A DNA stretch of 64,000 nt, from the IMG/VR virus record IMGVR_UViG_3300008113_000041, positions 1 through 64,000 of that record. One strand, given 5' to 3'. This document shows, one piece after another, positions 9,859 through 43,508 of the stretch. The translations under genes were made by a program, and so were the position numbers. Source of the stretch: a virus. The notes beneath the pieces are model-generated. The model was not told the origin of the DNA. It did no database searches and was given only the letters and a program-made list of their open reading frames with translations. The first letter of the stretch is position 1; every line of letters begins with the position of its first letter.

Positions 9859-9958
9859 TAGTTATTTGGGATAATTAGTTTTTGGTATTTTCCCCGTTTT
9901 ATAGGAAAGGAGGTATATTGTTTACTCTATCCTAGAAAGGGGGTGATCTTAAATCTAG

Positions 9959-9996
9959 CCTTGGTGGGTCGAAAGGCCCACCAAGGTTTTTCTTTC
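9959..9996 (+). terminator. Strong intrinsic terminator after capsid gene
   Basis: CCTTGGTGGGTC, loop GAAA, GGCCCACCAAGG, then TTTTTCTTTC. Twelve paired positions including one G-U pair and a GAAA tetraloop. It lies between the capsid and tail tubular A genes, the position of T-phi in T7, and would raise capsid mRNA relative to the tail genes. The 100 bases upstream (9859-9958) hold an extra AAAGGAGGTAT like the one before the next gene but no convincing open frame. Confidence 0.9.
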
Positions 9997-10012
9997 TTTA
10001 AAGGAGGTATCT

Positions 10013-19240: not shown

Positions 19241-19354
19241 ATGCTATTAGCTAGTATTGAGTCATTCTTGGGTTCACTTTGGTTTGCTGCTCTTCTTGGC
19301 GTGGTCGGCTATGTTGCTGGTCACATCTTTCCTATTTCAAAGTTCAAGAAGTAA
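19241..19354 (+). CDS. Very small single-pass membrane protein
   Basis: A 37-residue protein with AGAAAGGACAGTTT before the ATG. Residues 9-30 (FLGSLWFAALLGVVGYVAGHIF) form one membrane segment, with basic residues at the end (SKFKK). Its place directly before the small terminase gene is where T7 has its holin (17.5), so it is a second holin candidate beside the gene at 15368. The 73 bases before it hold no recognised signal. Confidence 0.55.
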   Translation: MLLASIESFLGSLWFAALLGVVGYVAGHIFPISKFKK

Positions 19355-19357
19355 GCA

Positions 19358-19564
19358 ATGAACAAGGTCGAACTCCTTAATCAACTACTTATCTCAAAGT
19401 TAATTGAGGATCTTAACGACCCTAATAAATGTACCCCTGGTTTATATCAAGCAGCTCGGGGCATTGTTAACGATAATAGAGATAAGTTGGATGAGATTCC
19501 TACAGATTCGCTTGATAGTTTAGAATCAAGACTGATTTCTAAAGCACCTTTTAAGTTAAAGTAA
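19358..19564 (+). CDS. Small terminase subunit (T7 gp18-like maturase A)
   Basis: A 68-residue protein. The segment LIEDLNDPNKCTPGLYQAARGIVNDNRDKL parallels the T7 gp18 line with DL-x-D-x5-P-x-LY-x-A, and the acidic C-terminal helix is similar. It would recognise phage DNA and present it to the large subunit. Shorter than T7 gp18 (89). It is separated from the large terminase gene by a 250-base GC-rich structured stretch. Confidence 0.72.
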   Translation: MNKVELLNQLLISKLIEDLNDPNKCTPGLYQAARGIVNDNRDKLDEIPTDSLDSLESRLISKAPFKLK

Positions 19565-19572
19565 CCTTATTG

Positions 19573-19785
19573 CCCTATACCTACATAGTCACTGGGTATA
19601 GGTACGCTGGCCGCTCATGCCTTAACGGGCATGGGGTGGGTAACTCCCACAGGCCGCCTCATTACTGGGCATTCATGCGCCAGTATTTCGCTACACCCGT
19701 TCAGAGCGAAGGCTCTGGGCGGGCTTTACAGCCCATTACAGCCGTTTCTCCACCTTGCCCCACCATCCGTAGGGGTCGGAAACGG
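19573..19785 (+). ncRNA. Candidate structured RNA upstream of large terminase
   Basis: A clearly GC-rich island in AT-rich DNA with a chain of stable, non-overlapping hairpins. Seen directly: CCTATACC (19574) with GGTATAGG (19595); GGCC (19609) with GGCC (19652) closing a three-way junction that contains CTCATGCC/GGCATGGG (19614/19628) and GTGGG/CCCAC (19636/19646); TACTGGGCA with TGCgCCAGTA (19663/19676); a 12-pair CCCGTTCAGAGC-GAAG-GCTCTGGGCGGG (19696-19723), competing with GGGCT/AGCCC (19721/19730); and CCGTTTC/GAAACGG (19742/19779) enclosing CCCC/GGGG. No poly-T run follows any stem, so these are not ordinary terminators. An 83-codon frame across it has only a TTG start and no ribosome site. 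The TerL ribosome site (TAGGAGG) comes after it. Could be a packaging RNA, a TerL mRNA leader, or a processed RNA; no known class recognised. Confidence 0.6.
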
Positions 19786-19817
19786 AACGCCTCTAATGGG
19801 ATTCTAGGAGGATTTTT

Positions 19818-21500
19818 ATGAAAGTTCCAAATGAGATGTTAGATGATTTTAGAAACCATGTATGGGCTAGTTTTAAGTATCTTGGATTAGGAGAACCATC
19901 TTTAATCCAGTATGCTATTGCAGATAAGATGCAAAATGGTCCATTAGACTTTCAATTACAAGCAGGAAGAGGAAAGGGAAAGTCTACAATCGCTGCTGTT
20001 TATGCCAGTTGGCTATTACTAAAAGATCCAGATACTACGATCATGGTTCTTTCTGCGACTGCAGATAAAGCAATTAAGTTTATTGCTCAAGTAAGGCAGA
20101 TTGTGGAATTGGTTCCGTATATGCAACATCTAAAACCAAAGGAGTTTGATAAAGATAATGCTTTTGGTTTTAAGGTTGGTTGTAGAACAAGAGAAGGACA
20201 GGATCTTTCTTGCTATGCCAAGGGTATCTCTGGTCAGATAACTGGTAGCCACGCTGACCATATAATTGCAGACGATGTTGAAATCGAAGAAAACTCAGAT
20301 ACACCATACGCAAGAGAAAAACTACTAGAAAAACTAGCAGAACTAGAGCAAATTAGAAACCCCATTAAAGATGGGACTATAAGAATACTTGGTACATTCC
20401 AATCTACTGATAGTATATACCTAAAGTTACCTTATCCTATCATTAAGTTTCCTGCGGTTAAACCAGACTTAAATAACCCTACAGAAACTATAGATGTAGA
20501 TCCATATGTATTAAACTTAGATATAGACGAAGGAGAAACCACAGAACCAGAACGATTTAGCAATGAAGTCTTAGAACAAAGAAAAGCAAAGATTGGTCCT
20601 AAGTTATTTTCATTACACTATAAACTAGATCCTACTTTGTCAGATAGAGGAAAGTATCCTTTAAAGTTAGAGGATCTTGTTGTTATGGATGTATCTCCAG
20701 ATATCTTTCCAGAAAAGGTTGTTTGGGGTAAAGCATACCCAAGTAAAGAAATAGCAAGCTTTGGTATTACTGGAGATCTAATTTATAACCCACAATGGGT
20801 ATCTGATAAGTATACAGAGTATGTAAATACCGTTATGTTTGTAGACCCCAGTGGTCGAGGAACAGACGAAACAGCAATATGTATTGCATCCTTCGTAAAT
20901 GGTTATGTTGTTATTCACGAACTTCTTGGTATTGAGGGTGGTTATGATAACCTAGCCTTGAAGAAAATCGCACAACTCGCTTATAAGTATTCTCTTACAG
21001 AGATACAAGTTGAGTCCAACTTCGGAGATGCAATGTATGCAAACTTACTTAGACCTGTGGTTTCAGAGATGTGTGGTCAAGTCGCTATTGAAGACTTCAG
21101 AGTTAAGGGAGCAAAAGAAGAAAGAATCATTAGAACCCTTGAGCCAATTATGTCTCAGCACAGACTTGTGTTTGACAAAAAAGCTATTAAAGATGAAACA
21201 AATCAAAGACAAATTACAAGAATCACAGAAAAAAGAGGATCGCTAAAACACGATGACCGCGTAGATATTCTTGCTAGTGCAGTTCACCATTGGGAATCAG
21301 CTCTAGCTATATCGCCAGATCAACAAATTATTAAGAACCAACAAAAAGAAACAAAAGAAACAATCAAAGATTGGTTAAGTAATAAAAGAGTTCTTGGTTT
21401 ACTTGGTGACAAAGTATCTGGAGCGGTTTTGGTTAACGACCAACCACTAAAAAAACCACATATAAATTTAAAAGATAGATTTAAACGGAGACTTAGATAA
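19818..21500 (+). CDS. Large terminase subunit (T7 gp19-like packaging ATPase/nuclease)
   Basis: Pumps DNA into the head and cuts concatemers. The 560 residues have an N-terminal ATPase with Walker A QAGRGKGKSTIAA (about 48-60) and Walker B HADHIIADDVEIEE (about 150), and a C-terminal RNase H-like nuclease with acidic residues in MFVDPSGRGTDET (about 342), EIQVESNFGD, and KHDDRVDILA (about 478). Length is close to T7 gp19 (586). Ribosome site TAGGAGGATTTTT. It follows a structured GC-rich stretch and precedes the internal virion genes, whereas in T7 it is near the right end after the fibre, so the virion block is reordered. Confidence 0.95.
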   Translation: MKVPNEMLDDFRNHVWASFKYLGLGEPSLIQYAIADKMQNGPLDFQLQAGRGKGKSTIAAVYASWLLLKDPDTTIMVLSATADKAIKFIAQVRQIVELVPYMQHLKPKEFDKDNAFGFKVGCRTREGQDLSCYAKGISGQITGSHADHIIADDVEIEENSDTPYAREKLLEKLAELEQIRNPIKDGTIRILGTFQSTDSIYLKLPYPIIKFPAVKPDLNNPTETIDVDPYVLNLDIDEGETTEPERFSNEVLEQRKAKIGPKLFSLHYKLDPTLSDRGKYPLKLEDLVVMDVSPDIFPEKVVWGKAYPSKEIASFGITGDLIYNPQWVSDKYTEYVNTVMFVDPSGRGTDETAICIASFVNGYVVIHELLGIEGGYDNLALKKIAQLAYKYSLTEIQVESNFGDAMYANLLRPVVSEMCGQVAIEDFRVKGAKEERIIRTLEPIMSQHRLVFDKKAIKDETNQRQITRITEKRGSLKHDDRVDILASAVHHWESALAISPDQQIIKNQQKETKETIKDWLSNKRVLGLLGDKVSGAVLVNDQPLKKPHINLKDRFKRRLR

Positions 21501-28707: not shown

Positions 28708-31700
28708 ATGAGTCAATTTACTCCAAGTTCCCTCGGACAACCAATCCCTTCGGGAACTGAGCCTGATTTCTCATACAATTTATTCGGTGGTTTACAACCA
28801 GTAGAAGTAAACAACCAACAACAAGTATTACGATACTCACTACCAGATGAGTTTGCAAAGACAGACGAACTAAAAAGAAAGCAAGAAGAAATTTCTAGCT
28901 TGCGTTTGTTTGGTGCTGTTGATAAAGATGATCCTAACTTTAAATCTATTGTTCAAGTTGGACAATACGAAATTCCAACTTATATTGGAATGCGCCAAGG
29001 AACAGGATTAAGCACAAGCTTAGATGCAGAAACAGTTGGCGAACAAGAAGTGAATAGACAAACAACAGCTGGGTCTGGTAGAAGAGGAATCTTTGCCGAA
29101 ACCAATAGAGAGTTTAATAGACTAATGGTAAAGACGGCTAACTCAGAAGCTGATATGTTTCCGTTTGATGCTAATGAATCATACGACTGGGCTACACAAA
29201 ATCTAGCTGGTAGCTTTGGTTCTTGGCTAAAATCTGTCGGAGATCTTATTGGTTGGACAAATACAGAACAACAAGATAACGCTGCTTTTAATGTTGAGTT
29301 AGCTTTAAGCCATGAAGATAGAAACTGGAACGGTGCATTAGCAGCAGAAGCAACAAATAAGTTTCTAACAGATAAACCAGAAGTTGCTCAATACTTTGAA
29401 CTTACTGGTGTTGATCCTCATCAATTTACAAGACTTAGTAAGAATCCTTTAGGTTGGACTTTCCAATTAAACCAAGCCGTTATTCAAGCACAAGCAAATC
29501 TAAGAATGCAAATATACGAAGAAGAAACTGGTTGGATTGGAAAGCAAGCAGATAAGTTATACTATGGTGTTAAAGATCCTACAATGATTCGGGATCTTAT
29601 AGTGACAACATTGGCATCTTATGGTTTAGCTACAACAGAAACCGCACTAGCTGGTTTAGCTAGAACAGGTATCGCTAGATCAGCTGGTGCTGCAGGACTT
29701 ATAGATAAAACCAGTCTTGCTGTAGGACGATATGGCGTTCGTGGTCTTTCTGGTGGTCCTCTTACTGGTCCTATTGAAAACTTTATTTTCCAAACATCTA
29801 AAGTACTCGTTCCAACAGTCGGAGAAAAAGGATTCCAAACAGCAGTTGCTCGTAGCGTAGCTATTATGGGAGAAGCTGCTGCGTGGTCTGGTATCTCTGC
29901 AGCCCAAATGCAAAAAGAAGATTATAGATTTAAACATCTAGTTTTAAACTTTGGAGAATATGCTCCTGAGTTTAAATACGATCTGTCCTCTATCTATCAA
30001 GCTGCCTATGAAGGTGGTTTATTAGGTCTTGGTATGTTTGGATCTATGCGTGTTGTTATGGGCGGTTTAGGAGATATCTCAGCAGTCCGTAGTGCAAAAC
30101 CAGGTGAAAAGATTTCTACTCTTTCTAGACAGATTGCAAACTCATTAGATAGTTTTGCAACAACAGTGGAAGGTAGAACAGTCTTTGGAAATAGACTAGG
30201 ACAAAATAGAGGCATTGCTTTCGGTAACTGGTTAGATAAGAACATGAAAGGTTTGGATAATAGAAACACCGCAAGCATTGTTGTTAATGGAAAAAACCTG
30301 TACCACTTTGATGGGTTCAGTCCAGAAGTAATTTCAAAGGCAAACTTTAATGAAGCAAAGTCTAGAGAAATTGTATCTCTTTGGGCTAAAGCCACAAACA
30401 CAGTAGAGACTCCAGAATCTTTATTTGATCCTGAAGTATTATCTACTAAAGGTTTAACATACGATCAGGTTATTGATACTCTTAAGACATTTAATAAAGC
30501 AATTGAGATTGGTGTAGAAGCTAGAAAGTCAATGCCAAGAGGTATGTTTGAAGCCATTAAACCATATGATGAGTTTAATGAAAGCTTTATAAATAAGGTT
30601 GCTCAGGATACTGAAGACCAAGCAACAAGAACTATTATGCGTGGCATCGTGGATGAGTGGCGAAGTCTTAATGAACAAAGAACCGCTAAGATAAACGCAG
30701 AACAAAACAAAGATCTTACTGAACTTTCTGATTTAGAATTTGAAGAAAGACGAACTGAACTAACAACTAGATTATCCGAATTAGAAGAAAAGAAAAAGTC
30801 ATTTGGATCTAATTCAAGTAAACTAGATAAAGAAATTTCAGATATTCAAGGACAACTTAAGCAAGTTAATTCTGAGATAGCTAAACTTAATAGCAAAGGA
30901 AAGTATCCTAATGCTTTAAAGAATATCTCAGACGCACTACGAATTACAGTAAAGAAACTAAATGATCTTACTCAAAAGCAGCAAGACGATAAACAAAAGA
31001 GACTTGCTGACATTGACAAGAAAGCAGAAAAAATTGAACGAAAGAGACAAATCTATTTAGCTTTACCTGATGAAACACCTGATCAGATTACTTATAAGAA
31101 TAGACTATTAAACGATTTGATTGGTGAAGAAGAAAAACTAAACGCAAAAAGAAATAAGATTGAATCTGAAAAGGGAGCCACAAGAAAAGAACAACGAGAA
31201 CTAGTTAACCTAGAAAAAGAAAAGAGTGAACTAGAACAACTAGAGTCTCAGTGGTTGTTGAAAGATAAACAAGAAACAGATCTGCAAACCAAGCAAAAAG
31301 AACTAGACGATCTTAAAGCAGAATACGAAGTTAAAGATGCAGATGGAAGTACAAATGAACAACGGATTGTCAGTACAAAAAATAGTATAGATGAGCTGGA
31401 TCGTGTTAAAAAAGAAACAGCAGAATACGATGCTAAGGTTAAGGACATTAAGCAACGATTCAATGCGTCTAGAGAAAAGTTAAATCAAGGAAAAGATAAT
31501 ATTGTATTCCTGGGTTTAACCGACAAACTAAAGAGACTGAATGATCTAAAACTACAAAGACAAATTATTAAAGACCCAAAGAGATTAAAGAGAATAGATA
31601 GAATTATTAAGCAGTTAGAAGCTTACTTTGAAACGGAACAAGGAGTCAAAGAAGCAGTAAGAGCAAAGATTATCGAAGATACCATTGATAATAATCGTGG

Positions 31701-34700
31701 TTTTGGTACAGCAAACACTGTAGCAAATATTCTTCTTGCTCTTAATATTCAAGCGGCTTTTGGTAAAGCAGAAAAGAATAAGATCTCCATTAAGACTATT
31801 ACTTCTAAGTTTAAGGAAGTAACAGGTAAAGATGTAGATTACGGTAATATCAAAGATCTATTTAACTTACAAACAGTTACAAACAATCTTATTGGTATTA
31901 CCCATATTAATTCTGCAGATTCCTTTATAGGAAAACTCTTAGACTTAGAAACAACTACAACAGTTTCTACTAATGGTGGTATTGTTAAGGGTTCCGCTAT
32001 CGTTGGTTTATTTAGAAACATACTTACAAGACTAGATAAGCGAGAAGGAAAAACTACTACAACAGTATTTATTTCAGATAGAGATTTTACTTTAACAAAC
32101 CAAGCTAAGGCTGGTCTTAATAATATTATAAAGATAACCATCAAAGAAGATGGAACATTTGCAACAGAAATGCAATTTGGAAAATTAGAAATGGATGAAG
32201 CTGGTAATGTCAAATCTACCAAGCCTGAACTATTCAATGATCCAGATCTTTCTGATCAAAATGTAATTGATTGGAATACATTTGCAGCAATGGTAAAAGA
32301 ATGGAAAGATGCGGCAGATGTTATTATTAAACAAGAAGATGAGAAAGCTGTAAAACTTCTTAGCACTACATTAGATGAAATGCAAGAAGATATGAAAGCA
32401 ATTCTTATTAATGCCCAACTCTTCTCCGAAGAGATCACTGGTGTTTTTAAAGATTTGCTTAGTTCCCTAGAAGATGGTGATGTATCTAATGTAATACTTC
32501 AAATGAAAAAAACATTTGACGATCAAATTAAAGAAGCAATAGAAGCTACATCTAAAGAACAATACCGAAGAGTGTATACTGGAATTATTGCTAATATGTT
32601 TGCATTAGAACAAATCAAACCACTGTTAAAGCAAAGAGTTGACGCTCTTAGTAATGCCGAACTAAAAGCAAAAGCAACTAAAGAACTTGCCGAACTTGAT
32701 AATAGCAAGTATACCGTAACACAAGCAATTCAAGATTACCATACAAGACCTAAAACAAATAAAGTAGAAACAAAGTCAGATAAGAAAAAAGCAAAGACAC
32801 AACCACTAGATTTAACTGGTGTTACTTTTATAGAAGAAACAACAGCCCCAGTTAAAGCAGATACAGAAACTCCTGCACTTGTTCCTACTATAGATAATCT
32901 AAAGTTAGTCTTTGGCTTAACAGATAAAGAAGCTCGCGTTGGTTCTATAATCATGCAAGCTTTGGGATCTAAAGTCGTAGATGGATTAACAAGTAATGTT
33001 GGTCTTGCTAAGGGTGGAGAAGAAAACGAACTTGCTCGTATCTTCCTAAAGCGTGTTGATGGTGGAGTAAAAGCACTTATAAAAGCAAATGAAGGCGCAG
33101 ATCTATTCTCTATTTCACACGAAATGGGTCACTACGCTAGGTTCTTCTTCTTAGATCCTAGAGCATCTGTAGCAGAAAGAGCAGCTGTTGGTATTACTGA
33201 TAGCATGTACGATAAAGTTATGTCTTGGTTAGGCGTAGCAAAAGACGCTGACGGTAACTACGAAAAACTAACAGACGCACAAGAAGAAAAATTTGCTAAT
33301 GGTTTTGCTTTGTATCTTATGAAGCTTCTACAAGGTGATGGCAAGGCAACCAATACTGGTATTCAATTTGCATTTAATAAACTTGGAGAACACTTAGGAG
33401 ACTTAGGTAATAAGTTTAAATCACTAAAGAAAACCAAAGATATTGAAGCAGCCAAGTTAACCCCAGAAGCAGAAGAAGTCTATGCTGCTCTTTTATCAAA
33501 GACTTCAGAAGATAATATCACAACCATCTTTATGGATGGATTCAAAGATATTATTTCAGATCTTACCGAAGAGCAAAAGACTTTACTGGGTCAAAGAATT
33601 CTTGGATCTATGCGTTGGGAAAAATATAAAGCTGGAATAGAACTAGAAAGAGAAGCTGCCGCAAAAGCAACTTCTGCTGTTAGTGAAACTATTGCTGAAG
33701 CAAATACAATTCCTGTAGAGCGTGTAGATACTGTTGCCGATTCTGTAGAAACCCCAAAGGTAGATATTGAAAAAGCCACAACACCAGCGGCTAAGGTTGA
33801 AGCGGCTGCAGAAGCAGCTGCTGTAGATGTCGCTATAACAAGACTAGAAGTAAAAGCAGATATTGATAAGGAAGTTGCAACATCACTTGCAACTACTGTA
33901 GATGCAATTATTACTAGAACAGAACCTGAAGTAGAACCTGTACCCACACTAACCACAACGCCAAAGATTACAACTGAACGCGAGTTAACGCTGAATGAAA
34001 TATCTAATCTTAAAGAAGGCGATGTAATAAAGTATACAAGTAGTAAGAGCCGTACAGACTATACTGGTGTTGTCAGAGGAACTTCCGATCAACTTAGTAC
34101 TAGATGGGTAGTTGTAAAAGTTACTGATACAGAAGGTCGCTCTAAAACAATTAATAAGAATATTAATTGGTGGTTAAAAAATAAAGTAACAGGTATTGTA
34201 GAAGCTGAAACACCCACTTCTGTAGAAACAAAACCAACAGATGTTACTGCTGAAGTTAAACCAGAAGAAACAGTAACAACGGCTATTGTTACAAATATTA
34301 GGAGAGAAAGAAAGCCACGAACAAAGAAAACAGTACAAGAAACTCAACAACAAAATAATCAAGCTAATACTACAGTTCAAGAAGCAGCTGTAAAAATTGA
34401 TGAAGTTTCTCAACAAGAACAAACAGTGGCTGCTACTATTATTGAAGAAGTAAGAGCAATAGAACCAACGGCAGTTCCTGTTGTTACTAAACAACTTGAA
34501 GAAAGAGTAAAACCTGATTTGAGTTTCTTAGGAGATAGAAGATCTGAAACACTAGATAAAGCTGTTGAAGACTTTGAAAAGCTTAATATTAAACTCAGTT
34601 TCCTTAGTTCTATTATTGGACTTTCTGAAGCAGAAGATATTGTAAAGTTTAGAGCTTTACAAGAAAACCCAATATATAAACAAAAGCAAGAAAGAGGAGA

Positions 34701-37700
34701 ACTAAATAATGAGTTTAGTATTGAAGGAACACTACAATATATTTCTGGTTTATTAAAACAAGAGTTAAGTTTAGAAAATGGAACCGTAGATTATTTAGGT
34801 TTAAGAATAAATAACAAACCTTTATTACTTACATCAGAACTAGTTGGTGTTATTAAAGCAGCAGCAACTAAGTTAGGTTTCAAAGAAGAAACTTTCTCCA
34901 TGATGGTAAGAGCAACCTTTGCGGTTGAAAAAGCAAAGACAGACCATTTAATGTCTATCTTGGGAAAGAAACTAAAAGCAATAGAAACAAAGATTGCTGA
35001 AGGTAAGAAACTACAAACAGCAGATAGAGAAGCTATAGCACAAGTGAAAACAATTGCTGATATAGAAGAAGCAGCTAAACAACCAACTATTGAAAAAGTT
35101 TCACCAGAAAGACAGGAACTAGCAAAGGTTATATTTGAGGCTTATGATTCCTTGTTTAGAGCGCGTAGATTAGATGAAGATTCTATAAACAATCTTTATG
35201 TTAACTTTGTTACAAAAGAAGGCTTAGTTAATCTCCTTAAAACTAGACTTGGTGATGATTACTTAGATCCTAACTTTATTAGGAATAAACTAAAAGCAGA
35301 ACCAGCTAGAGTTGGAGATCCTATTTACAACCTTCTTGTGGGTTCTATTAAGAATCTAGAGTTGTCTGAAAGAAGATCTAAGATAGGACAGATAACAACA
35401 AAGATAAAAGAAGTTAATGAAAAGGGAGAAGTTGTTGAAGAAACAATAATTCAAAAGTTTAAAAAAGAAGGAAGTCAAAGAATTGGTAAGGGTGAAAACG
35501 AAGTAGATATAATTGGTAGAGAAACTTCAAGACGAACATTACAAGAGCCAGAATTAGAGATGAACATTGAACATGCCAAAGCAGCAATTAATAGTGGACA
35601 TGTGTTTGGTTCCTTGTTCAAGTTTATTCAAGCTCAAGGTGATACTGATGTCTTAAACTTCTTCGTAGCCAAGATGCAAGCTATTCAAGAAGGCCACGCA
35701 ACTAACTATAAGTCTTATATTGCTAAACTATTTGATGTTCATAATATTAAGAGAAACGGAACATTTGCATATACTTCAGAAACCTTAAAAACTCTTGAAG
35801 AAAAAGCAGAAGCATATATAGATGAATGGTTGACTGCTGTATCTGAAGTAGAGCCAGATATTGCTAAAGGTATTAGAGAAGTTATCCCTGGTGTCAAAAA
35901 AAGAAAACCAAGGGAAGTTACTATTAAAGACGAAGCTTCATTTGCACAGTCTTTAAAACAACTAGAGTATTTTACAAAGTCTACAGGAACAAAACTTTTA
36001 GAAGGATTTGATTGGTCTAAAGCTCAAACAACGGAACAAGAAATTTTACAAACTTTTAAAAGTAATTTCCCTAACCAACCAACTTTAAGAAATTTACTAA
36101 ATGTAATAGAAGAAAAAATACCATTAGATTCTCCAATAGCCTCATCTTATAAAGATATTGTAGCTTTGTTTAAACAAGCTCCAAAAGATATTATAGATGA
36201 AACAAAAGTAGAAATTAAAGACGCTAGAGCTAGGGTTACTCTTGTTGGTAATATAATTAGTGTTTCAGAAAAAAATAATATTAATACAATATTCCATGAA
36301 ATAGCACATGGTGTTACTGTTCAATATATTAATAGATACATTTCTAAAGCGTCTAAATTAGATTCAGAAACTCTGTATAAACAAAGTGCAAAACAAATGA
36401 TAGATACACTAATTTCAATTCAAGATAATAAAGTATTACCAAAAGAAGTATCAAATATGATAAAAGCGTATCTTACTTATCTTACTAATAGATTTGGTTC
36501 TTTAGAGGTTGTAAAAGGAGAGAAAAAAATTGAGTTAAAAAACTTAGTAATGATGCAAAATTTTGAAGATTTAGAATCTATTGTTATGGATAAAACCTAT
36601 GCTTTTGCTAGAGAACAAGAAGATAATTATAAATATGGATATCCATTAATATCAAAAGATGCTGCTACTACTCAAAGAATAAAAACAGCTTGGACTAAAT
36701 TTAAAAATAAAATGTCTACGGTTGAAAATGGAGTGTATTCAATTTCATTAGCTCCAAAAATAATTCAAACTATTTCTAGACTTGATTATACTTTTATTGA
36801 TGATTCTTTTGCTTCTTCTAAAAAAAACATTGAGCTAGAAAATATTTTCCTTATTAGAGATATAATAACAAGTATAGAAAATAAAAGAGGATTTATTGAA
36901 GGTAAAGATTATTTCATTCTTGAGGAAGGTTGGGGCGAAAAACGAAGAGTATACATTATATATACTAAACCTTTAGTAGAAAACCTTAAACAAAAAGGAT
37001 TAGTTGAACCAGAGTTTGAAAATAACTCAGCAAATAATTACAGGCTTACTGATTTAGATTATGATAATGATTTGCTATTAGCTAATAAAGATTTACTTTT
37101 ACCTAAATTAATAGGATTTAAAAAAAGTTTACCAGATGTATTTAAAACAAATGGTTTACCATATGCGGCTGGTAGTATCTATGAATTTATTTCTGAAATA
37201 TTTACAAGAGAACAACACGCAAGATTTTTAGATAATATAAAACTAAATAATGAAAATAGTTTAAAATCAGTATTAGTAGACGCTATAAGAGCGTTGTGGG
37301 GAATAGAAGGAAACGCAAACAAACAAACATTACTAACGAAAGTTCTGAGTAATGTAGAAATTATTTCAAAAAACGAAAGAAACTTTATTGCAGTTAAATC
37401 AATAACAGATCAATCTAAAGTTTTAAGTTTTGCTCAATCAAAGAAAATAAAAACAAAAGAAAGCCGTGGTATAAAAAAAGCAGAAAAATTTAGGCAAGAT
37501 TTAAATACAAGTAAGGGTAGATGGTTAGTTCTTGCTACAAAACTAAAGCAACTAATCAATCAAGATATTCCAAACGAAACAGAAATTGCCAAAGTAAAAG
37601 AAGAATTAAACAGTGTACTTGCTACTATTTCTGTAAAGAGAAAGGGATTAAAGGCTTTAGGTTTATCTGAAAACTTTAGTGATAAAGATATCGCAATAGT

Positions 37701-40700
37701 AAATAGATTGCTAGAAGGACTAGATCCAGTTGATGATCTATCAACTAGACTTGGTGTTGAGAATGCAAATAGAATTATTACTGCTGATATTTTAGAACTA
37801 AAAGATCCAGAACAAAAGATGGAATTTGTTAAGGCTTTCCGTGGTATGATTAAATCCAAACCACAACTAAGATCCTTCTTACGGGAATTAGAAAAAGTAA
37901 AAACAGATCCAAGCTTTATCTCTAAGGTTGCTGATGAATTAGCTATTACAAGAGAAGACGATGAAGCAGTAGATACTAAAGGTTTACGAGACATGAGTAC
38001 AGAACAGCGAAGAGACTTTTTAATTAATGAGTTTATTCCGAAGATTAGCGAAACACTAGGTGAACGGGCTGGTCCTCAGAATATTCTTAGTAAGTTCTTT
38101 GAAGCCGTTCCTGGTGGCTCTGCTATTGCTAGACAATTCCAAAGAAGAGTTGGTGGTAGCGTATCTTATGCGGATACTGTAAACTCTCCATACCTTACTT
38201 TGGCTTTCCTAGCAAAGATACTAGATCCTAATATTGATGTTAGAAACGGAGAACTATCTGGTAACTTCAGATTGTTCTCAATGGAAGAAGCAGAAGCAGA
38301 AGCAAAACTTATTCTAACAAGTTCTGGTATTCCTGATATCTTGTCTGAGATTCAAGCAAAGAAACTAAATGAAGAACAGCTTAAGGCACTAAATAACATT
38401 GCTTGGAGATACCTTACAAAGCCCGAAGAACTACCAACAGATACTCCAAATAAAGAATTAATACTTGGTTTAATAAAAGCACGAAACAAGTTTAATGCTT
38501 TAGTATCGGATTATCTAAAGCAGTACGGTGGGTTGGGTGCTAAACTAGAAGATCCAGATATGTATGGAACTTCTCATAGACCTAGCCTATATGCTATAAA
38601 CAATCCAGATGAGTTTGTGAAAGCACTTACTAAACACGAAACAGAAAAGTTCTTAAACAGTAATGAACTTAACGGTGCTACTTTACACGCTATGGGTTGG
38701 ATTGAAATCACAAGAGCTAATGATGACGGTCATGTTGATATGGTTGTCATTAGAGAAGATTCTCCAATTGCTGGTTTGTTTGAAGACAAACAAATAACAA
38801 AGAAAGACGCAAAGAAAACTAAAAAGATAACATGGGGTAAGGCTAAGAAACAACTACAAATAAAAGATGAAGAAGGTAATCTTAGACTTCCACAAGAAAC
38901 CCTAGATAGATACTACGATGCATTGAAGGATGTAACAGATGATTATCTTCCTGCTTGGACTGAATACTACAAGAACTTTGCAAATCCAACAGCAATCTTT
39001 GTATCAATGCGTACTGCTAAGGATCGTATTCTACGGGTTCCTGAAGGAGAAAGTGATAACAAATCTCTATCTCCAAAGACATACTATGCAAACAAAGCAA
39101 GTGATTATACAGAAGAAAGATTATTTACACACGACGAGTTAGTTGGTAATGAAGAACTAGCCAAGTTCTTTAATGACAATATTCTTGGTTTGACTATTGA
39201 AGAAGCAAATGTTAGACTCTTCCAACATGTAGTTACTAAGAAACTAACTGAAGTCTTTGGTGTACGAATGTCATTCGATGATCTTCTTCAGTTTGCAAAA
39301 CTAGCAGAACTTAACTATGTCAGAGATATAGATAAAGTATCTGTAAAAGAAAGAGAGAGTTTCTTTAGGGGTTGGGAAAAGATTCGTAGATCTTGGTTAC
39401 AGAAAACAAATAGACTATCAACTGAATCTTCGGATTATGATCCTAGCTTTAAATGGTTAATGGAAAGTTCTCCAGGAATTATAATGGCTCTTGGTGGATT
39501 ATCTGCTGGTACTAAGACTGTTGTATCTGAGTTGCCTAGAGCATTGCTGGCTTCAGATAGAAATAGATCCTTTGTTACTCAGTTTATTCCCAATCTATTT
39601 ACCATGTTAAAGTATACCTTTGGATTAAATGCAGCTCAAAAGAGACTAGAGTTGTTAAAGCAAGCTTCTGCTATTCACTGGACTAGAGCTGTCCTAGAAG
39701 ACACCTTCTCCGCTAACTACGAACACTCAGCTTCAAGACACGATTATGCTGGTCCTGTTCTTGGTAGACAAGGTTGGTGGAGAAACCTATCAGGTAGATG
39801 GAACTCTCTAGTCGAAGCAAATAGAATGGAAAAGACCGCTAGTGATAAAGCTAGCAATATAGTAGCTAGTATTGGTTGGCTTGGTGGTAGTTTACTACGC
39901 TGGTCAAACGAAATGGTAAATGTCATTTCAATGCAAAATGCAATGCATAACATCCAATCCAATATAACTAACTTTAGAAATCTTGCTATTATGTTAGATA
40001 AGTATGGTACTGAACTATCTGGAAAAAGCCCAAGACGAGCTGAGTTTAATAAACTAGCTAGATCCTGTGGTATCTCTCCAGAAGAAGCATTAGATCTATC
40101 AAGATCTGGTTTGCTGGATTTAGAAACCATAAATATTATGCACAAAGCATTGACTAAAGATTATAAGTTAGTTACTACTGAAGGTCTTCCAGATTCTTCC
40201 AAGTTACTCAAGTGGGCAGAAACCCTATCAGCAGAAGATCAAGTAAAAGCAAAGAATGCTGTTTATAAACTAGCAGGATACATTAAGACTCTGGCAAGAA
40301 ACACAAACACCGAACCAACTTTATTGGATACTAGAGTTACCGTTGATCCTGTAGCAAGAGCCTTAAGATTGTATACTCAGTTCGGTACTAGTAACTCTGT
40401 CCAAGCAATTGGTAGAGTTAGACGATCTGGTAATGCAGCCTTGGCTAGATTCGTAGCTGGTCAGTTCCTAATGCAAGTAGCTGGTGGTGTTCTAATCTCC
40501 TATCTCCTAAATGCTGGAGATGAAGATGAAGCAACAAATGAAATCACCAGTTCACCTGTAGCCTTCATGTTAACCAATGCTGCTAGAATGCCCGTATACG
40601 GAAACTATAGCTGGCTCTTTAAGTTATTGGTTACTGGTGCCTATCAGACCTATGCCCATGTTGCACAGGAAGATGTACCAAAGAGCATGGAAAGACTAGA

Positions 40701-41154
40701 CCTACCTAATGTTATTGACTCACCATTCCAGTATAGATTTGATGCCATGACTAAGGACTTTGAGAAGATGCCAGGTATCATAACCAGATATATGGAAGGT
40801 AAGCCACTAACTAGAAAGCAAAGAGAACAAGCTATACAAGCTATACCATTCTTAGATAATATGTTATTATCAGGACTAATAAAGAATGCTCTTGAAGAAG
40901 AGTACACCCCACCCACCGTAGGTAGGGTATATAATCCTGGTATTATTGAATCTAAGAAGCCAGCTCCAAAGGCCGTAGAATCGCCTATGGAGCCTAGGGT
41001 ACAACAACCTATGGTAGAGCCTACTCCAGAGGTAGGAATGCCTAGGGAGCCTATGCCCGTGGCTAGAACGACTCAGCCATTGAATATACCCAGTAGACCT
41101 GTAAAACTACAGGGAGTATCTACTGAGTTGGCTGATCTGTTAGAAAGATTCTAA
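28708..41154 (+). CDS. Giant multi-domain virion protein with two HExxH metallopeptidase motifs
   Basis: A 4148-residue protein, about three times T7 gp16, in the gp16 position. Seen: N-terminal part with hydrophobic Gly/Ala segments near 290-330 and 430-455; a long Lys/Glu coiled coil at about 660-1010; a first gluzincin-type site ISHEMGHYARFFF (HEMGH 1471-1475) with a later EEKFANGFALYL as candidate third ligand; Ala/Val/Glu and Pro/Thr linkers around 1640-1750 and 1830-1900 flanking a small beta-barrel-like domain (LKEGDVIKYTSSKSRTDYTG, about 1765); a second site IFHEIAHGVTVQ (HEIAH 2530-2534) with EFISEIF about 300 residues on; a long C-terminal helical half with a hydrophobic segment near 3920 (FLMQVAGGVLISYLL) and a Pro-rich tail. 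Composition is notably AT-rich at about 36.0-37.45 kb around the second site. This layout resembles phage polyvalent proteins injected with DNA. No RNA polymerase motifs of the N4 virion type were seen. Confidence 0.8.
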   Translation: MSQFTPSSLGQPIPSGTEPDFSYNLFGGLQPVEVNNQQQVLRYSLPDEFAKTDELKRKQEEISSLRLFGAVDKDDPNFKSIVQVGQYEIPTYIGMRQGTGLSTSLDAETVGEQEVNRQTTAGSGRRGIFAETNREFNRLMVKTANSEADMFPFDANESYDWATQNLAGSFGSWLKSVGDLIGWTNTEQQDNAAFNVELALSHEDRNWNGALAAEATNKFLTDKPEVAQYFELTGVDPHQFTRLSKNPLGWTFQLNQAVIQAQANLRMQIYEEETGWIGKQADKLYYGVKDPTMIRDLIVTTLASYGLATTETALAGLARTGIARSAGAAGLIDKTSLAVGRYGVRGLSGGPLTGPIENFIFQTSKVLVPTVGEKGFQTAVARSVAIMGEAAAWSGISAAQMQKEDYRFKHLVLNFGEYAPEFKYDLSSIYQAAYEGGLLGLGMFGSMRVVMGGLGDISAVRSAKPGEKISTLSRQIANSLDSFATTVEGRTVFGNRLGQNRGIAFGNWLDKNMKGLDNRNTASIVVNGKNLYHFDGFSPEVISKANFNEAKSREIVSLWAKATNTVETPESLFDPEVLSTKGLTYDQVIDTLKTFNKAIEIGVEARKSMPRGMFEAIKPYDEFNESFINKVAQDTEDQATRTIMRGIVDEWRSLNEQRTAKINAEQNKDLTELSDLEFEERRTELTTRLSELEEKKKSFGSNSSKLDKEISDIQGQLKQVNSEIAKLNSKGKYPNALKNISDALRITVKKLNDLTQKQQDDKQKRLADIDKKAEKIERKRQIYLALPDETPDQITYKNRLLNDLIGEEEKLNAKRNKIESEKGATRKEQRELVNLEKEKSELEQLESQWLLKDKQETDLQTKQKELDDLKAEYEVKDADGSTNEQRIVSTKNSIDELDRVKKETAEYDAKVKDIKQRFNASREKLNQGKDNIVFLGLTDKLKRLNDLKLQRQIIKDPKRLKRIDRIIKQLEAYFETEQGVKEAVRAKIIEDTIDNNRGFGTANTVANILLALNIQAAFGKAEKNKISIKTITSKFKEVTGKDVDYGNIKDLFNLQTVTNNLIGITHINSADSFIGKLLDLETTTTVSTNGGIVKGSAIVGLFRNILTRLDKREGKTTTTVFISDRDFTLTNQAKAGLNNIIKITIKEDGTFATEMQFGKLEMDEAGNVKSTKPELFNDPDLSDQNVIDWNTFAAMVKEWKDAADVIIKQEDEKAVKLLSTTLDEMQEDMKAILINAQLFSEEITGVFKDLLSSLEDGDVSNVILQMKKTFDDQIKEAIEATSKEQYRRVYTGIIANMFALEQIKPLLKQRVDALSNAELKAKATKELAELDNSKYTVTQAIQDYHTRPKTNKVETKSDKKKAKTQPLDLTGVTFIEETTAPVKADTETPALVPTIDNLKLVFGLTDKEARVGSIIMQALGSKVVDGLTSNVGLAKGGEENELARIFLKRVDGGVKALIKANEGADLFSISHEMGHYARFFFLDPRASVAERAAVGITDSMYDKVMSWLGVAKDADGNYEKLTDAQEEKFANGFALYLMKLLQGDGKATNTGIQFAFNKLGEHLGDLGNKFKSLKKTKDIEAAKLTPEAEEVYAALLSKTSEDNITTIFMDGFKDIISDLTEEQKTLLGQRILGSMRWEKYKAGIELEREAAAKATSAVSETIAEANTIPVERVDTVADSVETPKVDIEKATTPAAKVEAAAEAAAVDVAITRLEVKADIDKEVATSLATTVDAIITRTEPEVEPVPTLTTTPKITTERELTLNEISNLKEGDVIKYTSSKSRTDYTGVVRGTSDQLSTRWVVVKVTDTEGRSKTINKNINWWLKNKVTGIVEAETPTSVETKPTDVTAEVKPEETVTTAIVTNIRRERKPRTKKTVQETQQQNNQANTTVQEAAVKIDEVSQQEQTVAATIIEEVRAIEPTAVPVVTKQLEERVKPDLSFLGDRRSETLDKAVEDFEKLNIKLSFLSSIIGLSEAEDIVKFRALQENPIYKQKQERGELNNEFSIEGTLQYISGLLKQELSLENGTVDYLGLRINNKPLLLTSELVGVIKAAATKLGFKEETFSMMVRATFAVEKAKTDHLMSILGKKLKAIETKIAEGKKLQTADREAIAQVKTIADIEEAAKQPTIEKVSPERQELAKVIFEAYDSLFRARRLDEDSINNLYVNFVTKEGLVNLLKTRLGDDYLDPNFIRNKLKAEPARVGDPIYNLLVGSIKNLELSERRSKIGQITTKIKEVNEKGEVVEETIIQKFKKEGSQRIGKGENEVDIIGRETSRRTLQEPELEMNIEHAKAAINSGHVFGSLFKFIQAQGDTDVLNFFVAKMQAIQEGHATNYKSYIAKLFDVHNIKRNGTFAYTSETLKTLEEKAEAYIDEWLTAVSEVEPDIAKGIREVIPGVKKRKPREVTIKDEASFAQSLKQLEYFTKSTGTKLLEGFDWSKAQTTEQEILQTFKSNFPNQPTLRNLLNVIEEKIPLDSPIASSYKDIVALFKQAPKDIIDETKVEIKDARARVTLVGNIISVSEKNNINTIFHEIAHGVTVQYINRYISKASKLDSETLYKQSAKQMIDTLISIQDNKVLPKEVSNMIKAYLTYLTNRFGSLEVVKGEKKIELKNLVMMQNFEDLESIVMDKTYAFAREQEDNYKYGYPLISKDAATTQRIKTAWTKFKNKMSTVENGVYSISLAPKIIQTISRLDYTFIDDSFASSKKNIELENIFLIRDIITSIENKRGFIEGKDYFILEEGWGEKRRVYIIYTKPLVENLKQKGLVEPEFENNSANNYRLTDLDYDNDLLLANKDLLLPKLIGFKKSLPDVFKTNGLPYAAGSIYEFISEIFTREQHARFLDNIKLNNENSLKSVLVDAIRALWGIEGNANKQTLLTKVLSNVEIISKNERNFIAVKSITDQSKVLSFAQSKKIKTKESRGIKKAEKFRQDLNTSKGRWLVLATKLKQLINQDIPNETEIAKVKEELNSVLATISVKRKGLKALGLSENFSDKDIAIVNRLLEGLDPVDDLSTRLGVENANRIITADILELKDPEQKMEFVKAFRGMIKSKPQLRSFLRELEKVKTDPSFISKVADELAITREDDEAVDTKGLRDMSTEQRRDFLINEFIPKISETLGERAGPQNILSKFFEAVPGGSAIARQFQRRVGGSVSYADTVNSPYLTLAFLAKILDPNIDVRNGELSGNFRLFSMEEAEAEAKLILTSSGIPDILSEIQAKKLNEEQLKALNNIAWRYLTKPEELPTDTPNKELILGLIKARNKFNALVSDYLKQYGGLGAKLEDPDMYGTSHRPSLYAINNPDEFVKALTKHETEKFLNSNELNGATLHAMGWIEITRANDDGHVDMVVIREDSPIAGLFEDKQITKKDAKKTKKITWGKAKKQLQIKDEEGNLRLPQETLDRYYDALKDVTDDYLPAWTEYYKNFANPTAIFVSMRTAKDRILRVPEGESDNKSLSPKTYYANKASDYTEERLFTHDELVGNEELAKFFNDNILGLTIEEANVRLFQHVVTKKLTEVFGVRMSFDDLLQFAKLAELNYVRDIDKVSVKERESFFRGWEKIRRSWLQKTNRLSTESSDYDPSFKWLMESSPGIIMALGGLSAGTKTVVSELPRALLASDRNRSFVTQFIPNLFTMLKYTFGLNAAQKRLELLKQASAIHWTRAVLEDTFSANYEHSASRHDYAGPVLGRQGWWRNLSGRWNSLVEANRMEKTASDKASNIVASIGWLGGSLLRWSNEMVNVISMQNAMHNIQSNITNFRNLAIMLDKYGTELSGKSPRRAEFNKLARSCGISPEEALDLSRSGLLDLETINIMHKALTKDYKLVTTEGLPDSSKLLKWAETLSAEDQVKAKNAVYKLAGYIKTLARNTNTEPTLLDTRVTVDPVARALRLYTQFGTSNSVQAIGRVRRSGNAALARFVAGQFLMQVAGGVLISYLLNAGDEDEATNEITSSPVAFMLTNAARMPVYGNYSWLFKLLVTGAYQTYAHVAQEDVPKSMERLDLPNVIDSPFQYRFDAMTKDFEKMPGIITRYMEGKPLTRKQREQAIQAIPFLDNMLLSGLIKNALEEEYTPPTVGRVYNPGIIESKKPAPKAVESPMEPRVQQPMVEPTPEVGMPREPMPVARTTQPLNIPSRPVKLQGVSTELADLLERF

Positions 41155-41162
41155 TTATTCTG

Positions 41163-41192
41163 GTCCTGTACCCTGAAATATGGGTACGGGAC
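41163..41192 (+). terminator. Strong hairpin ending the late gene block
   Basis: GTCCTGTACCC, loop TGAAATAT, GGGTACGGGAC: eleven pairs with one G-U. It begins eight bases after the stop of the giant gene. The following bases (TATTCGTT) are only weakly T-rich, so it could act as a terminator for the phage polymerase or as an RNA 3'-end stabiliser. A promoter copy follows 11 bases later, marking a transcription boundary. Confidence 0.7.
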
Positions 41193-41202
41193 TATTCGTT
41201 GG

Positions 41203-41220
41203 TTGGGGCTATAGATGATA
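41203..41220 (+). promoter_or_regulatory. Candidate phage promoter, copy 3
   Basis: TTGGGGCTATAGATGATA, in a non-coding gap between the end of the virion block and the small-gene block, directly after a strong hairpin. It shares TATAGATGAT with the copy at 56947. The intergenic setting makes it one of the clearest copies. Start of transcription is expected near 41214. Confidence 0.8.
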
Positions 41221-41248
41221 TATAATCATTATAAGGAATTTTCTTTTA

Positions 41249-41275
41249 CCTTGTAGGAATACAAGGGTTTTCTTT
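41249..41275 (+). terminator. Terminator-like hairpin in the leader downstream of promoter copy 3
   Basis: CCTTGT, loop AGGAAT, ACAAGG, then GTTTTCTTT. Only six pairs, but with a T-rich run. It lies about 35 bases after the expected transcription start, so it could act as an attenuator or as a 5' mRNA stabiliser. Confidence 0.55.
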
Positions 41276-41321
41276 AAGTTGATATTATTATAGGGTTAGC
41301 CCACAGGATCTCCTAAGTAAG

Positions 41322-41356
41322 CAAGGGACTCCGTGGTTTGCCTAACACGGAGCTTG
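41322..41356 (+). other. Leader hairpin before the acidic peptide gene
   Basis: CAAG-GGA-CTCCGTG, loop GTTTGCCTAA, CACGGAG-CTTG: eleven pairs with a three-base bulge. It has no T-run and lies 30 bases before the ATG at 41387. With the hairpin at 41249 it makes a structured 5' leader of about 170 bases. Confidence 0.6.
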
Positions 41357-41386
41357 GGTCTTTGCCGTCTACACGGGAGGTCAGCT

Positions 41387-41497
41387 ATGATATCTATTGA
41401 TGGGTTAGATGGTCCACTGGATTTTGAGGTGGATGATGATGACTTTGACATGGAAATTGACTTAGGGGTCAGAAATTTATTCTGGGTTCCTCCCTAA
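41387..41497 (+). CDS. Small very acidic protein
   Basis: A 36-residue peptide with GGGAGG seven bases before the ATG. Twelve of its first 26 residues are Asp or Glu (DFEVDDDDFDMEIDLG), with a hydrophobic tail ending in WVPP. It is the first gene after the promoter at 41203. Short acidic phage proteins made early sometimes mimic DNA to block host enzymes; nothing beyond charge and position supports that here. Confidence 0.5.
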   Translation: MISIDGLDGPLDFEVDDDDFDMEIDLGVRNLFWVPP

Positions 41498-41692
41498 ATC
41501 CCTCCGCTGATGGCCCCCCTTTAGCCCCTCGGTCGGCTCGGGTCATAACCTCGGAGGCTGATAACCGAATCGGGCATAGCCTACCCTGCCTTTCTTTCGC
41601 GGCATACCCTAGGATACAATCCTGCAGCGTATACCATCGAAGGGAAAGCATCGTAGCCTACCCTATCCGTTCCAAGTTAAGGAGTCTGAATC
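41498..41692 (+). repeat. GC-rich non-coding leader with 11-base direct repeats
   Basis: No credible gene. TAGCCTACCCT occurs at 41577-41587 and again at 41654-41664, with a partial third copy (CATACCCT) at 41603. A hairpin AGGAT-ACA-ATCCT lies between them (41611-41623), and CCTCCG (41501) can pair with CGGAGG (41552). The repeats could be protein-binding sites or parts of an RNA leader for the gene at 41693, whose ribosome site (AAGTTAAGGAG) closes the stretch. Confidence 0.5.
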
Positions 41693-42067
41693 ATGTCGAT
41701 CCTCGCTATCATCGCCAAGTCTTCTCTGCTCGTCAAGTTCGACGCGGCTATCGTCAAGGGTGATATCGTCAACCCCGCTACGCGCAAGGTGGACATGCGC
41801 TCGGTCAAGTCCCTCGCGGTCAAGGATGCCACGGTCAAGGGTTCGGACGGTAAGGACTACCCTTTGATGGCGGTCTGCGTCAAGATGCTCGGGGGTAACC
41901 CCGTGACGGAAGACCTCCGCACCTCTGACTTCGCGGTCAAGGCGGGTGAGGTCATGCGCGAGTACCTCATGGCGGAACGCCCTGACGCGGGCTGGGTTAA
42001 CGCCAACACGGCTAACAAGGCGAACCCGAAGGCTGCGCTCGCTAACCTCGACGCGGTTACCTTCTGA
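41693..42067 (+). CDS. Hypothetical protein of the GC-rich small-gene block
   Basis: A 124-residue protein preceded by TTAAGGAGTCTGAATC. Codons are strongly GC-ending (GTC, CTC, GCG, AAC), in sharp contrast with the virion genes ending 500 bases upstream. Many Val-Lys pairs (SVKSLAVKDATVKG). A plausible small alpha/beta domain with LMAVCVKMLGG in the middle and a polar Ala/Asn tail. No family recognised. A terminator follows, so it is a single-gene unit with its own leader, suggesting high early expression. Confidence 0.75.
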   Translation: MSILAIIAKSSLLVKFDAAIVKGDIVNPATRKVDMRSVKSLAVKDATVKGSDGKDYPLMAVCVKMLGGNPVTEDLRTSDFAVKAGEVMREYLMAERPDAGWVNANTANKANPKAALANLDAVTF

Positions 42068-42100
42068 TTCCATCGGGGGGAGGTTACTAACCCCCAACAT

Positions 42101-42131
42101 AACCCTTCGCCCTAACGGGTGAGGGGTTATT
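42101..42131 (+). terminator. Terminator-like hairpin after the 41693 gene
   Basis: AACCCTTCGCCC, loop TAAC, GGGTGAGGGGTT, then ATTT: twelve pairs with two G-U. A smaller GGGGG/CCCCC hairpin precedes it (42075-42095). The T-run is short, so termination may be partial. Confidence 0.7.
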
Positions 42132-42173
42132 TCCGTTTGGTCATTCGCCTCAAAGTTAAGAGGAGTCGTGGTT

Positions 42174-42500
42174 ATGGTTACCATGTTTAGCGTGTGCGAA
42201 GTTAAGGACGGGGCAGTTAAGGAACTCAACTATCTGCGTTCGCTTAATGAGGCGAAGGCTTATGCCTCGGGTCGTTATGATGGAACCGTTAAGTTCCTTC
42301 CATTGTCCGCTGTGGTTATGTCCGTCACGGGTGACGATCCACGCTTTATGCGGGAGGATGTTTACATTGTCGAGGTTAAGATGACGCAGGATGAGTTGGA
42401 CGAGCCTATGGGCGGCAAGGCTGTTCCCGATAGGTTGTACTGGGAGATTGTCGAGTCGTGGGATAAGTTTGAAGCCTCTAACGGAATGGGGGTTAAGTAA
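42174..42500 (+). CDS. Hypothetical small protein
   Basis: A 108-residue protein; ATG 42174 has AAGAGGAG nine bases upstream and is better spaced than an in-frame GTG at 42168. Mixed alpha/beta sequence with NYLRSLNEAKAYASGRYDG and a C-terminal acidic part ending EIVESWDKFEASNG. Val is mostly GTT and Lys AAG, giving many GTTAAG words. No family recognised; two bases separate it from the next gene. Confidence 0.7.
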   Translation: MVTMFSVCEVKDGAVKELNYLRSLNEAKAYASGRYDGTVKFLPLSAVVMSVTGDDPRFMREDVYIVEVKMTQDELDEPMGGKAVPDRLYWEIVESWDKFEASNGMGVK

Positions 42501-42502
42501 TC

Positions 42503-42865
42503 ATGGGTAAGATCAATCCAGTCATGCTCACCTGCATTAACCAAGCCATCGCTAACGCGAAGGCAACTAGGTCGCGTGAGGCTATTCACGCCGCAGTTAT
42601 CAGCCTCGCCCGTAATGCTGGAATCAGTTATGGGGTTGCGGCTAACATCCTGCGGGTTAAGTCGGGCTTGGATACGCCCGATGCGGATGAGGCTCGCGCA
42701 CTTAATGAGCGCGGGGCTTATCTCGGGCAGTATATCACGCCCGTTAAGGATTACAAGCCTATCACGACAGACCCTAACCCGCAGCCAGTTAAGGCGAAGG
42801 CGGTTAAGCCGAAGGTTGTTACCACCGTTACGGTTATCCCGTCTGACCCTAACTTCTTTCTCTGA
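42503..42865 (+). CDS. Hypothetical helical protein with Pro/Val/Lys tail
   Basis: A 120-residue protein. Residues 1-60 are helical and Ala-rich (INQAIANAKATRSREAIHAAV, then GISYGVAANILRVKSG, which has helix-turn-helix-like spacing), followed by a Pro/Val/Lys-rich disordered tail (VKAKAVKPKVVTTV). A small DNA-binding regulator is possible from the helix-turn-helix look, but the pattern is weak. Confidence 0.65.
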   Translation: MGKINPVMLTCINQAIANAKATRSREAIHAAVISLARNAGISYGVAANILRVKSGLDTPDADEARALNERGAYLGQYITPVKDYKPITTDPNPQPVKAKAVKPKVVTTVTVIPSDPNFFL

Positions 42866-42881
42866 TAAGGAGTCATCAGTT

Positions 42882-43076
42882 ATGAGCGAAGAACTTAAGT
42901 CCCTCATCCTTGAGAGTCAGACAGATATGATTCTGTCGGGTAGCCTTGAGCCTATCAAGGAAGAGGTTAAGGTGAAGCGGGTTAAGACTGACTACGATCC
43001 GCACCGCGCACCTAACTGGTTCCGCGTTGTGTGGGACGAGGTTATGGCTGACACGGTTGAAGGTCAACTTGGTTAA
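42882..43076 (+). CDS. Small hypothetical protein
   Basis: A 64-residue protein. The ATG at 42882 has AAGGAG ten bases upstream; the same frame is open further upstream inside the previous gene, but that part is a shadow. Sequence: SEELKSLILESQTDMIL, a basic stretch KEEVKVKRVKTDYDPHRAP, then NWFRVVWDEVMAD. No family recognised. Confidence 0.65.
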   Translation: MSEELKSLILESQTDMILSGSLEPIKEEVKVKRVKTDYDPHRAPNWFRVVWDEVMADTVEGQLG

Positions 43077-43088
43077 GAAAGGAACACC

Positions 43089-43400
43089 ATGATTAACAAT
43101 CTTGACGAGTACAATAAGTGGCAGGCTATGCAGGTTGCTCCTATTGTGAGCCAACTTAATGAGATCACGGGTGTCTTTGATGCGCTTATGCGCGAAGAAG
43201 ATATGCCTGCACAGCGTATGATGTTCTTGGTTAGCGCGGCTTGGAAACAGTACGACAAGGTTATCAATGCTGATGGTTATGCCATGTGGTGTAATCATTC
43301 AGAGGTTATTGCCGCGAGGGAAAACCTCTACAATACGCACTTGTCGCTTATGTCTCTCGTTTGTTGCGACGATTATAAGAACAAGCAAGTTTGGGCATAG
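43089..43400 (+). CDS. Hypothetical helical protein
   Basis: A 103-residue, mostly helical protein (NNLDEYNKWQAMQVAPIV near the start and ARENLYNTHLSLMSLVCC near the end), ribosome site AAAGGAACACC. No family recognised. A 108-base gap with two hairpins follows. Confidence 0.65.
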   Translation: MINNLDEYNKWQAMQVAPIVSQLNEITGVFDALMREEDMPAQRMMFLVSAAWKQYDKVINADGYAMWCNHSEVIAARENLYNTHLSLMSLVCCDDYKNKQVWA

Positions 43401-43410
43401 TCTATATAAC

Positions 43411-43471: not shown

Positions 43472-43508
43472 GCCTGATGAGACAAACCAAGTTAAGGAGA
43501 TTTCAAGT

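Follow-up and report, generated by a model that had tools for sequence, protein, structure and literature searches.

A genuine structured RNA of the plus strand, roughly 225 bases long (positions 19574-19800, about 60% GC), separates the genes for the small (TerS) and large (TerL) terminase subunits in an uncultured T7-like phage and is kept by selection. The covariation of its helices in three lineages makes it a well-supported structured RNA in a T7-like packaging operon. The element is absent from Rfam and is a new candidate RNA family, a structured regulatory phage RNA with an unusual location, which may well act in cis on the messenger that carries it. The window analyzed here is a stretch of 64,000 of the 64,806 bases of the record IMGVR_UViG_3300008113_000041, and all positions refer to this window unless a contig is named.

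Genomic context and folding energy

The phage of the window encodes a T7-type RNA polymerase, a capsid protein, and a large terminase according to Pfam and PHROG. Immediately 5' of the element is a TerS-like gene of 68 amino acids (19358..19564, plus strand), which matches PF11123 (DNA_Packaging_2, E 3.6e-5, with a score of 24.2 bits just under the cut-off of 27.5) and PHROG 1351 (terminase small subunit). The T7-type TerL gene (19818..21500, plus strand, 560 amino acids) matches PF22530, an RNase H-like nuclease domain, with E 1.6e-32, as well as PHROG 38, and its Shine-Dalgarno sequence AGGAGG is found at 19806..19811 of the same strand. An earlier, sequence-only reading had placed the element between the small and large terminase genes, and Pfam and PHROG agree with it for both. 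The gap between the two genes spans 253 bases and is largely filled by the element at about 19574-19800; to our knowledge, phages this compact rarely retain 225 untranslated bases. The reading frame crossing the element (19570-19821) is open in the window and can be aligned to the related contig L003 for only 22 of 83 residues. It is not conserved as a protein, so that no conserved frame, which the same reading had named as an argument against an RNA, was found across the region.

The GC content reaches 0.595 at 19600-19799, compared with 0.32-0.42 in the surroundings and a mean of 0.373 for the window. The contrast previously noticed as a GC-rich island is real, but the genome also contains a second GC-rich stretch at about 41.4-42.6 kb. 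The latter lies at the start of a region (41693-52100) unlike the remainder of the genome, with many small overlapping ORFs and four tRNA genes (Leu, Lys, Arg, and Gln).

The 258-nt region folds with -108.8 kcal/mol, corresponding to z-scores against shuffled sequences of -5.6 for the plus strand and -3.1 for the minus strand, and the 150-nt core (19574-19723) has a z-score of -7.0. The element has the lowest free energy among the 639 tiles of 200 nt in the window, largely because of its high GC, and the GC-corrected residual is just -1.9 SD. Folding energy alone is weak proof, and the comparative evidence carries the case for a structured RNA. That the low energy compared with other tiles is mostly a matter of GC alone would suit a chance GC-rich island without any function, but compensatory changes and an invariant core in three lineages refute this explanation, to which we give practically no probability.

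Architecture of the RNA

The element comprises the helices P1-P7, all described here for the plus strand. P1 (19574..19602) is an 8-bp stem (19574-19581/19595-19602) with three compensatory pairs and a 13-nt loop, UACAUAGUCACUG, which is identical in three lineages. It is followed by the invariant single strand J1/2, UACGCU (19603..19608), and by a three-way junction (19609..19655) composed of P2 (19609-19612/19652-19655), P3 (19614-19622/19627-19635), and P4 (19636-19640/19646-19650). Within the junction, one pair of P4 is compensatory, and P2 and P3 carry one-sided substitutions that preserve the pairing. The apical loop of P3 is either UAAC or GAAA, both of which we take to be tetraloops with a GNRA-like fold. 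The P5 hairpin, ACUGG...CCAGU (19664..19684), is unchanged in the three lineages and is connected by J5/6, AUUUCGCUACA (19685..19695), to P6 (19696..19723), a 12-bp hairpin with a GAAG loop, whose fourth pair is G-C, A-U, and C-G in the three lineages. The core of J5/6, UUCGCUAC, is common to the elements of three other clades. P7 (19724..19800) is a long 3' hairpin with the outer stem CCCAUUA/UAAUGGG; it differs in size and sequence between lineages, with z-scores for the fold of -3.2 in the window, -1.4 in L003, and -8.0 in L026.

Our folds recovered both the three-way junction at 19609-19655 and the 12-pair hairpin with the GAAG loop at 19696-19723 that had been described from the sequence. 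The island had been delimited at 19573-19785, and its stems were found where they had been placed, but the structure runs on to about 19800 with the variable 3' hairpin.

Covariation in the clade of the window

By searching with TerL and TerS, we found the same element at the same position in six other contigs belonging to three lineages. This class I includes L001 and L002 (nearly identical), L003, L004, and L017 (TerL 89-91%), and L026, which is identical to L035 (TerL 78%). Over 43 helix pairs, L003 and L026 carry 17 and 19 substitutions at paired positions relative to the window, and not a single pair is broken; random placement of equal numbers of substitutions broke about 10-11 pairs, and none of the 100,000 simulations matched zero. 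In a separate count, all 38 in-register pairs (100%) were paired and six had changed on both sides, which none of 500 shuffles equaled, and slid partners were paired in 28-48%. P4 was put out of register by MAFFT, and its pairs were counted by hand. Compensatory changes in the stems, proposed earlier as a check on the structured RNA, are thus found across the class I lineages.

G-U pairs and GNRA-like tetraloops occur on the plus strand only, which also folds better, and the G-U pairs together with the P3 tetraloops indicate an RNA read in the same sense as the genes. The combination of covarying helices and a conserved unpaired core, a mark of cis-regulatory structured RNAs, is present in the element. 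Searching viral contigs with three different exact patterns of class I returned the same six contigs each time, indicating no wider distribution at that sensitivity.

Invariant single strands

Among the three lineages, none of the 54 unpaired positions of P1-P6 varies (not including the apical loops of P3 and P4), compared with 19 of the 76 paired positions (Fisher P 1.7e-5). The third codon positions of TerL are 67% (L003) and 53% (L026) identical to the window in the same comparisons. Fixed single strands on freely covarying stems are the look of aptamers, ribozymes, and protein-binding RNAs. The 54 invariant unpaired bases imply a specific partner, and the identity of this partner would show control of terminase production or packaging itself.

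Conserved single strands and covarying stems would also fit a ribozyme that cleaves or splices itself, or an intron remnant, and both ribozymes and group I introns are known in phages. However, Rfam, whose library includes the known self-cleaving ribozyme families and the group I and II intron families, gave no match at the gathering score for the whole window and none of relevance up to E 10 for 19350-19950, and both neighboring genes are intact without splicing. We regard this origin as very unlikely.

The 5' domain of L003 differs from that of L026/L035 at 1 of 126 nt, with TerL 73% and the flanking genes 73-75% identical. This near-identity conflicts with the TerL tree, where the window joins L003, and it brings the independent comparisons for P1-P4 nearer to two lineages than three. 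It may reflect extreme constraint, recombinational exchange of the domain as a cassette, or a partner in trans.

A shared core in related phages

The core motif, hairpin-UUCGCUAC-hairpin after TerS, is found in four clades, namely class I and three further groups of related phages. Class II (L048-L055; TerL about 59%) has an element of about 140 nt and class III (L005, L011, L014-L016, and L040-L043; TerL about 70%) one of about 60-100 nt. Class IV (L031, L117-L119, L133, and L143; TerS 38%, TerL about 55%) has weaker flanking structure, and its members except L031 were retrieved by a pattern containing the motif and are not independent support. In the loci fetched up to that search, the 8-mer TTCGCTAC was found only directly 3' of TerS. 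G006 and G014 also have matches of TTTCGCTAC, but these are distant from TerS and have no hairpin context, and we took them as chance. Outside class I, the elements share the core but differ otherwise in sequence and size, and a covariance model of the class I RNA matched class I alone and not classes II-IV. Judged from their sequences, the four classes are linked by position, the exact UUCGCUAC motif, and the hairpin-linker-hairpin layout, not by alignable structure. A pseudoknot or loop-loop pairing of the linker, seen by eye with the apex of P6 in class I and with the loop GGUAGC in class II, is not claimed here, as L052 breaks the class II version.

In class III, the first hairpin carries the TerS stop codon in its loop, and class I has an extra block of about 110 nt (P1-P4) between the TerS stop codon and the core. 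In the outgroup clade (L031 and L118 of class IV), the core is located 0.9-1.1 kb 5' of TerL. The core tracks TerS and not the start of TerL, which suggests an ancestral role at the 3' end of the TerS transcript. The TerL tree unites classes I, II, and III in one supported clade, and since the motif-less relatives L006, L010, L020, L045, and L046 are nested inside it, the core is probably ancestral in this clade and has been lost at least twice. The element is absent from L006, L010, L018, L020, and L045-L047, which are close relatives with the same T7-type TerL, and such losses in near relatives offer natural controls. In L045-L047, TerS overlaps TerL, leaving no room for the element. In L006 (4930-4996), as well as L010, L018, and L020, a single 13-bp hairpin, GGAACTATGACA...TGTTGTAGTTCC (z -5.5), is found between TerS and TerL instead.

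The exact motif of 8-9 bp kept directly 3' of TerS in four clades with differing flanks could also mark a DNA site, with TTCGCTACC and the flanking repeats serving in TerS recognition or as a packaging (pac) site beside TerS. In several headful phages, the pac site adjoins this gene. However, the helices change yet stay paired, including G-U pairs of the plus strand, which is not required of a double-stranded DNA site; moreover, the near-complete relatives L006, L010, and L018 with a similar terminase have no TTTCGCTAC at all, and the order of the genes would place the genome ends near 41.2-41.7 kb, not at the element. A DNA site seems unlikely to us.

Ribonuclease processing is a more serious alternative. 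The T7 late transcript has an RNA structure, the RNase III site R18.5, just after the TerS gene. A stable stem-loop between TerS and the next cistron, as expected of such a site, is present in the folds of the four clades and of L006. The element might chiefly be an elaborate counterpart of R18.5, cut in or close to the UUCGCUAC linker that joins two stable hairpins, and cleavage would leave a 3' hairpin on the TerS mRNA and a 5' hairpin on the TerL mRNA, protecting both. The constant order of hairpin, single-stranded linker, and hairpin in four clades, the agreement in position with R18.5, and the one strong hairpin kept by the motif-less relatives would all be accounted for. Yet a simple hairpin is enough for RNase III, and the T7 RNase III sites are single irregular hairpins, so that the 54 invariant unpaired bases and the three-way junction would be left unexplained. 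We consider processing as the chief function possible but rather improbable.

Transcription signals and a possible role in cis

The putative phage promoter GTTGGGGCTATAGA, also given as (G)TTGGGGCTATAGA, has six copies on the plus strand, at 1458 (one mismatch), 25977, 41202, 47407, 56946, and 63603. Judging from their sequence, the (G)TTGGGGCTATAGA copies are likely the promoters of the T7-type RNA polymerase of the phage; the copy at 25977 falls within a coding gene. Allowing up to three mismatches, GTTGGGGCTATAGA has no plus-strand match between 18.7 and 25.3 kb. Sequence searches for a promoter or terminator of the element itself detected no plus-strand sigma-70-like site nearby and no GC-rich stem with a U-run within it, in line with the earlier remark that its stems are not simple terminators. 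With neither signal detected, the element should be co-transcribed in a long late messenger.

Signals of other kinds were observed elsewhere in the genome. Right after the major capsid gene, at 9859-10012, the hairpin CCTTGGTGGG TCGAAAGG CCCACCAAGG followed by TTTTTC resembles a terminator and has the strongest fold residual of the window; the main terminator of T7 is at the corresponding position. A gap of 538 bases without a long ORF (41155-41692) contains a promoter copy, strong hairpins (such as CCTGTACCC...GGGTACGGG), and rising GC, and could mark the genome ends or be another structured RNA. It separates the region of small genes from a gene of 4148 amino acids (28708-41154), which comes after another ORF of 1815 amino acids; with a T7-like genome of about 65 kb, a single ORF of 4148 amino acids is unusually long.

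An RNA processed out of the late messenger could conceivably work in trans with the terminase or portal as a stable RNA that takes part in or senses packaging, including a packaging RNA working with the portal-terminase motor as in phi29. Its location between the terminase genes, its compact independent fold, and a 5' domain that is extremely conserved across lineages would suit such a role, and because of this conservation we retain a small probability for it. It is nonetheless quite unlikely: the element has disappeared from near relatives that share this TerL, no promoter or terminator of its own was found, its size is about 225, 140, or 60-100 nt depending on the clade and its stems vary, and TerL retains the nuclease domain with TerS present. 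The comparison with the phi29 packaging RNA (pRNA) drawn in the sequence-only reading is unsupported on these same points. If a trans role were true, it would reveal a packaging-associated RNA outside the phi29 group, in a T7-like phage.

In the predicted folds, the Shine-Dalgarno sequence of TerL has an unpaired probability of 0.18-0.64 across all clades, whether the element is present or not, and no consistent pattern of sequestration is predicted among the clades. Simple translational blocking is thus unsupported. The alternative suggestion of a leader controlling TerL came closer as an mRNA element near TerL, but the core tracks the 3' end of TerS, and the ribosome-binding sequence is not consistently sequestered.

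On balance, we lean toward the element being a structured RNA domain that acts in cis within the polycistronic late messenger, in the untranslated stretch between TerS and TerL, where it would tune both genes. This reading is favored by where the element lies, by a ribosome site that is not consistently hidden, by the differences in size, and by the loss in near relatives. The invariant loops and the linker might be bound by a factor. This could be a protein of the phage (for packaging or RNA binding) or of the host (an RNase or one that binds RNA), a small ligand being less likely. The hairpins around them could insulate the TerS and TerL cistrons and determine how stable and how well translated the TerS mRNA is on the 5' side and the TerL mRNA on the 3' side. 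The RNA would then act post-transcriptionally through factor binding, nuclease direction, or both, and the two terminase subunits might thereby be made in the right ratio and at the right time. Against a cis-acting domain, the core precedes TerL by as much as 0.9-1.1 kb in L031 and L118 and is not strictly a TerL leader, and the near-identity of the 5' domains of L003 and L026 exceeds what ordinary regulation usually needs.

Comparison with known systems

We found no published description of the element in the literature searched. A blastn search of the element against 50,697 phage records gave no match, and the bacterial and archaeal genome contigs contained neither a TerL relative nor the class I RNA pattern. 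The TerL of cultured relatives is only about 35-39% identical, and the motif is absent from the TerS-TerL regions of Limnohabitans phage YIMV22061, Roseobacter phage CRP-114, and Synechococcus phage S-CBP4.

The element occupies the same place after TerS as R18.5 of T7, whereas it consists of P1-P7 with a three-way junction and invariant unpaired bases, and its cleavage is putative. The pRNA of phi29 is encoded at the 5' end of the genome and has been described as unique to phi29-like phages (PMC11476376). With a full length of 174 nt and a function in packaging, it is likewise a phage-encoded structured RNA of similar size; the present element, in contrast, is not universal in its clade and accompanies a TerS and a T7-type TerL that has a nuclease domain (PF22530), unlike the phi29-type partner ATPase, whose nuclease domain is reduced. 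The pRNA family of Rfam gave no hit to the window either. The L17 downstream element (RF01708), also a structured RNA, lies in the potential 3' UTR of the gene before it (PMC2864571), as the core described here is 3' of TerS, but the genes, hosts, and structure differ, and Rfam gave no match. Conserved structured RNAs beside phage genes, mainly from aquatic metagenomes and phages, have been reported as manA (RF01745), wcaG (RF01761), and PhotoRC-II (RF01717), which occur with metabolic or photosynthesis genes, mostly in potential 5' UTRs, in cyanophages (PMC2864571). The element presented here is likewise a structured phage RNA, but one that no Rfam model fits and that lies between the terminase genes.
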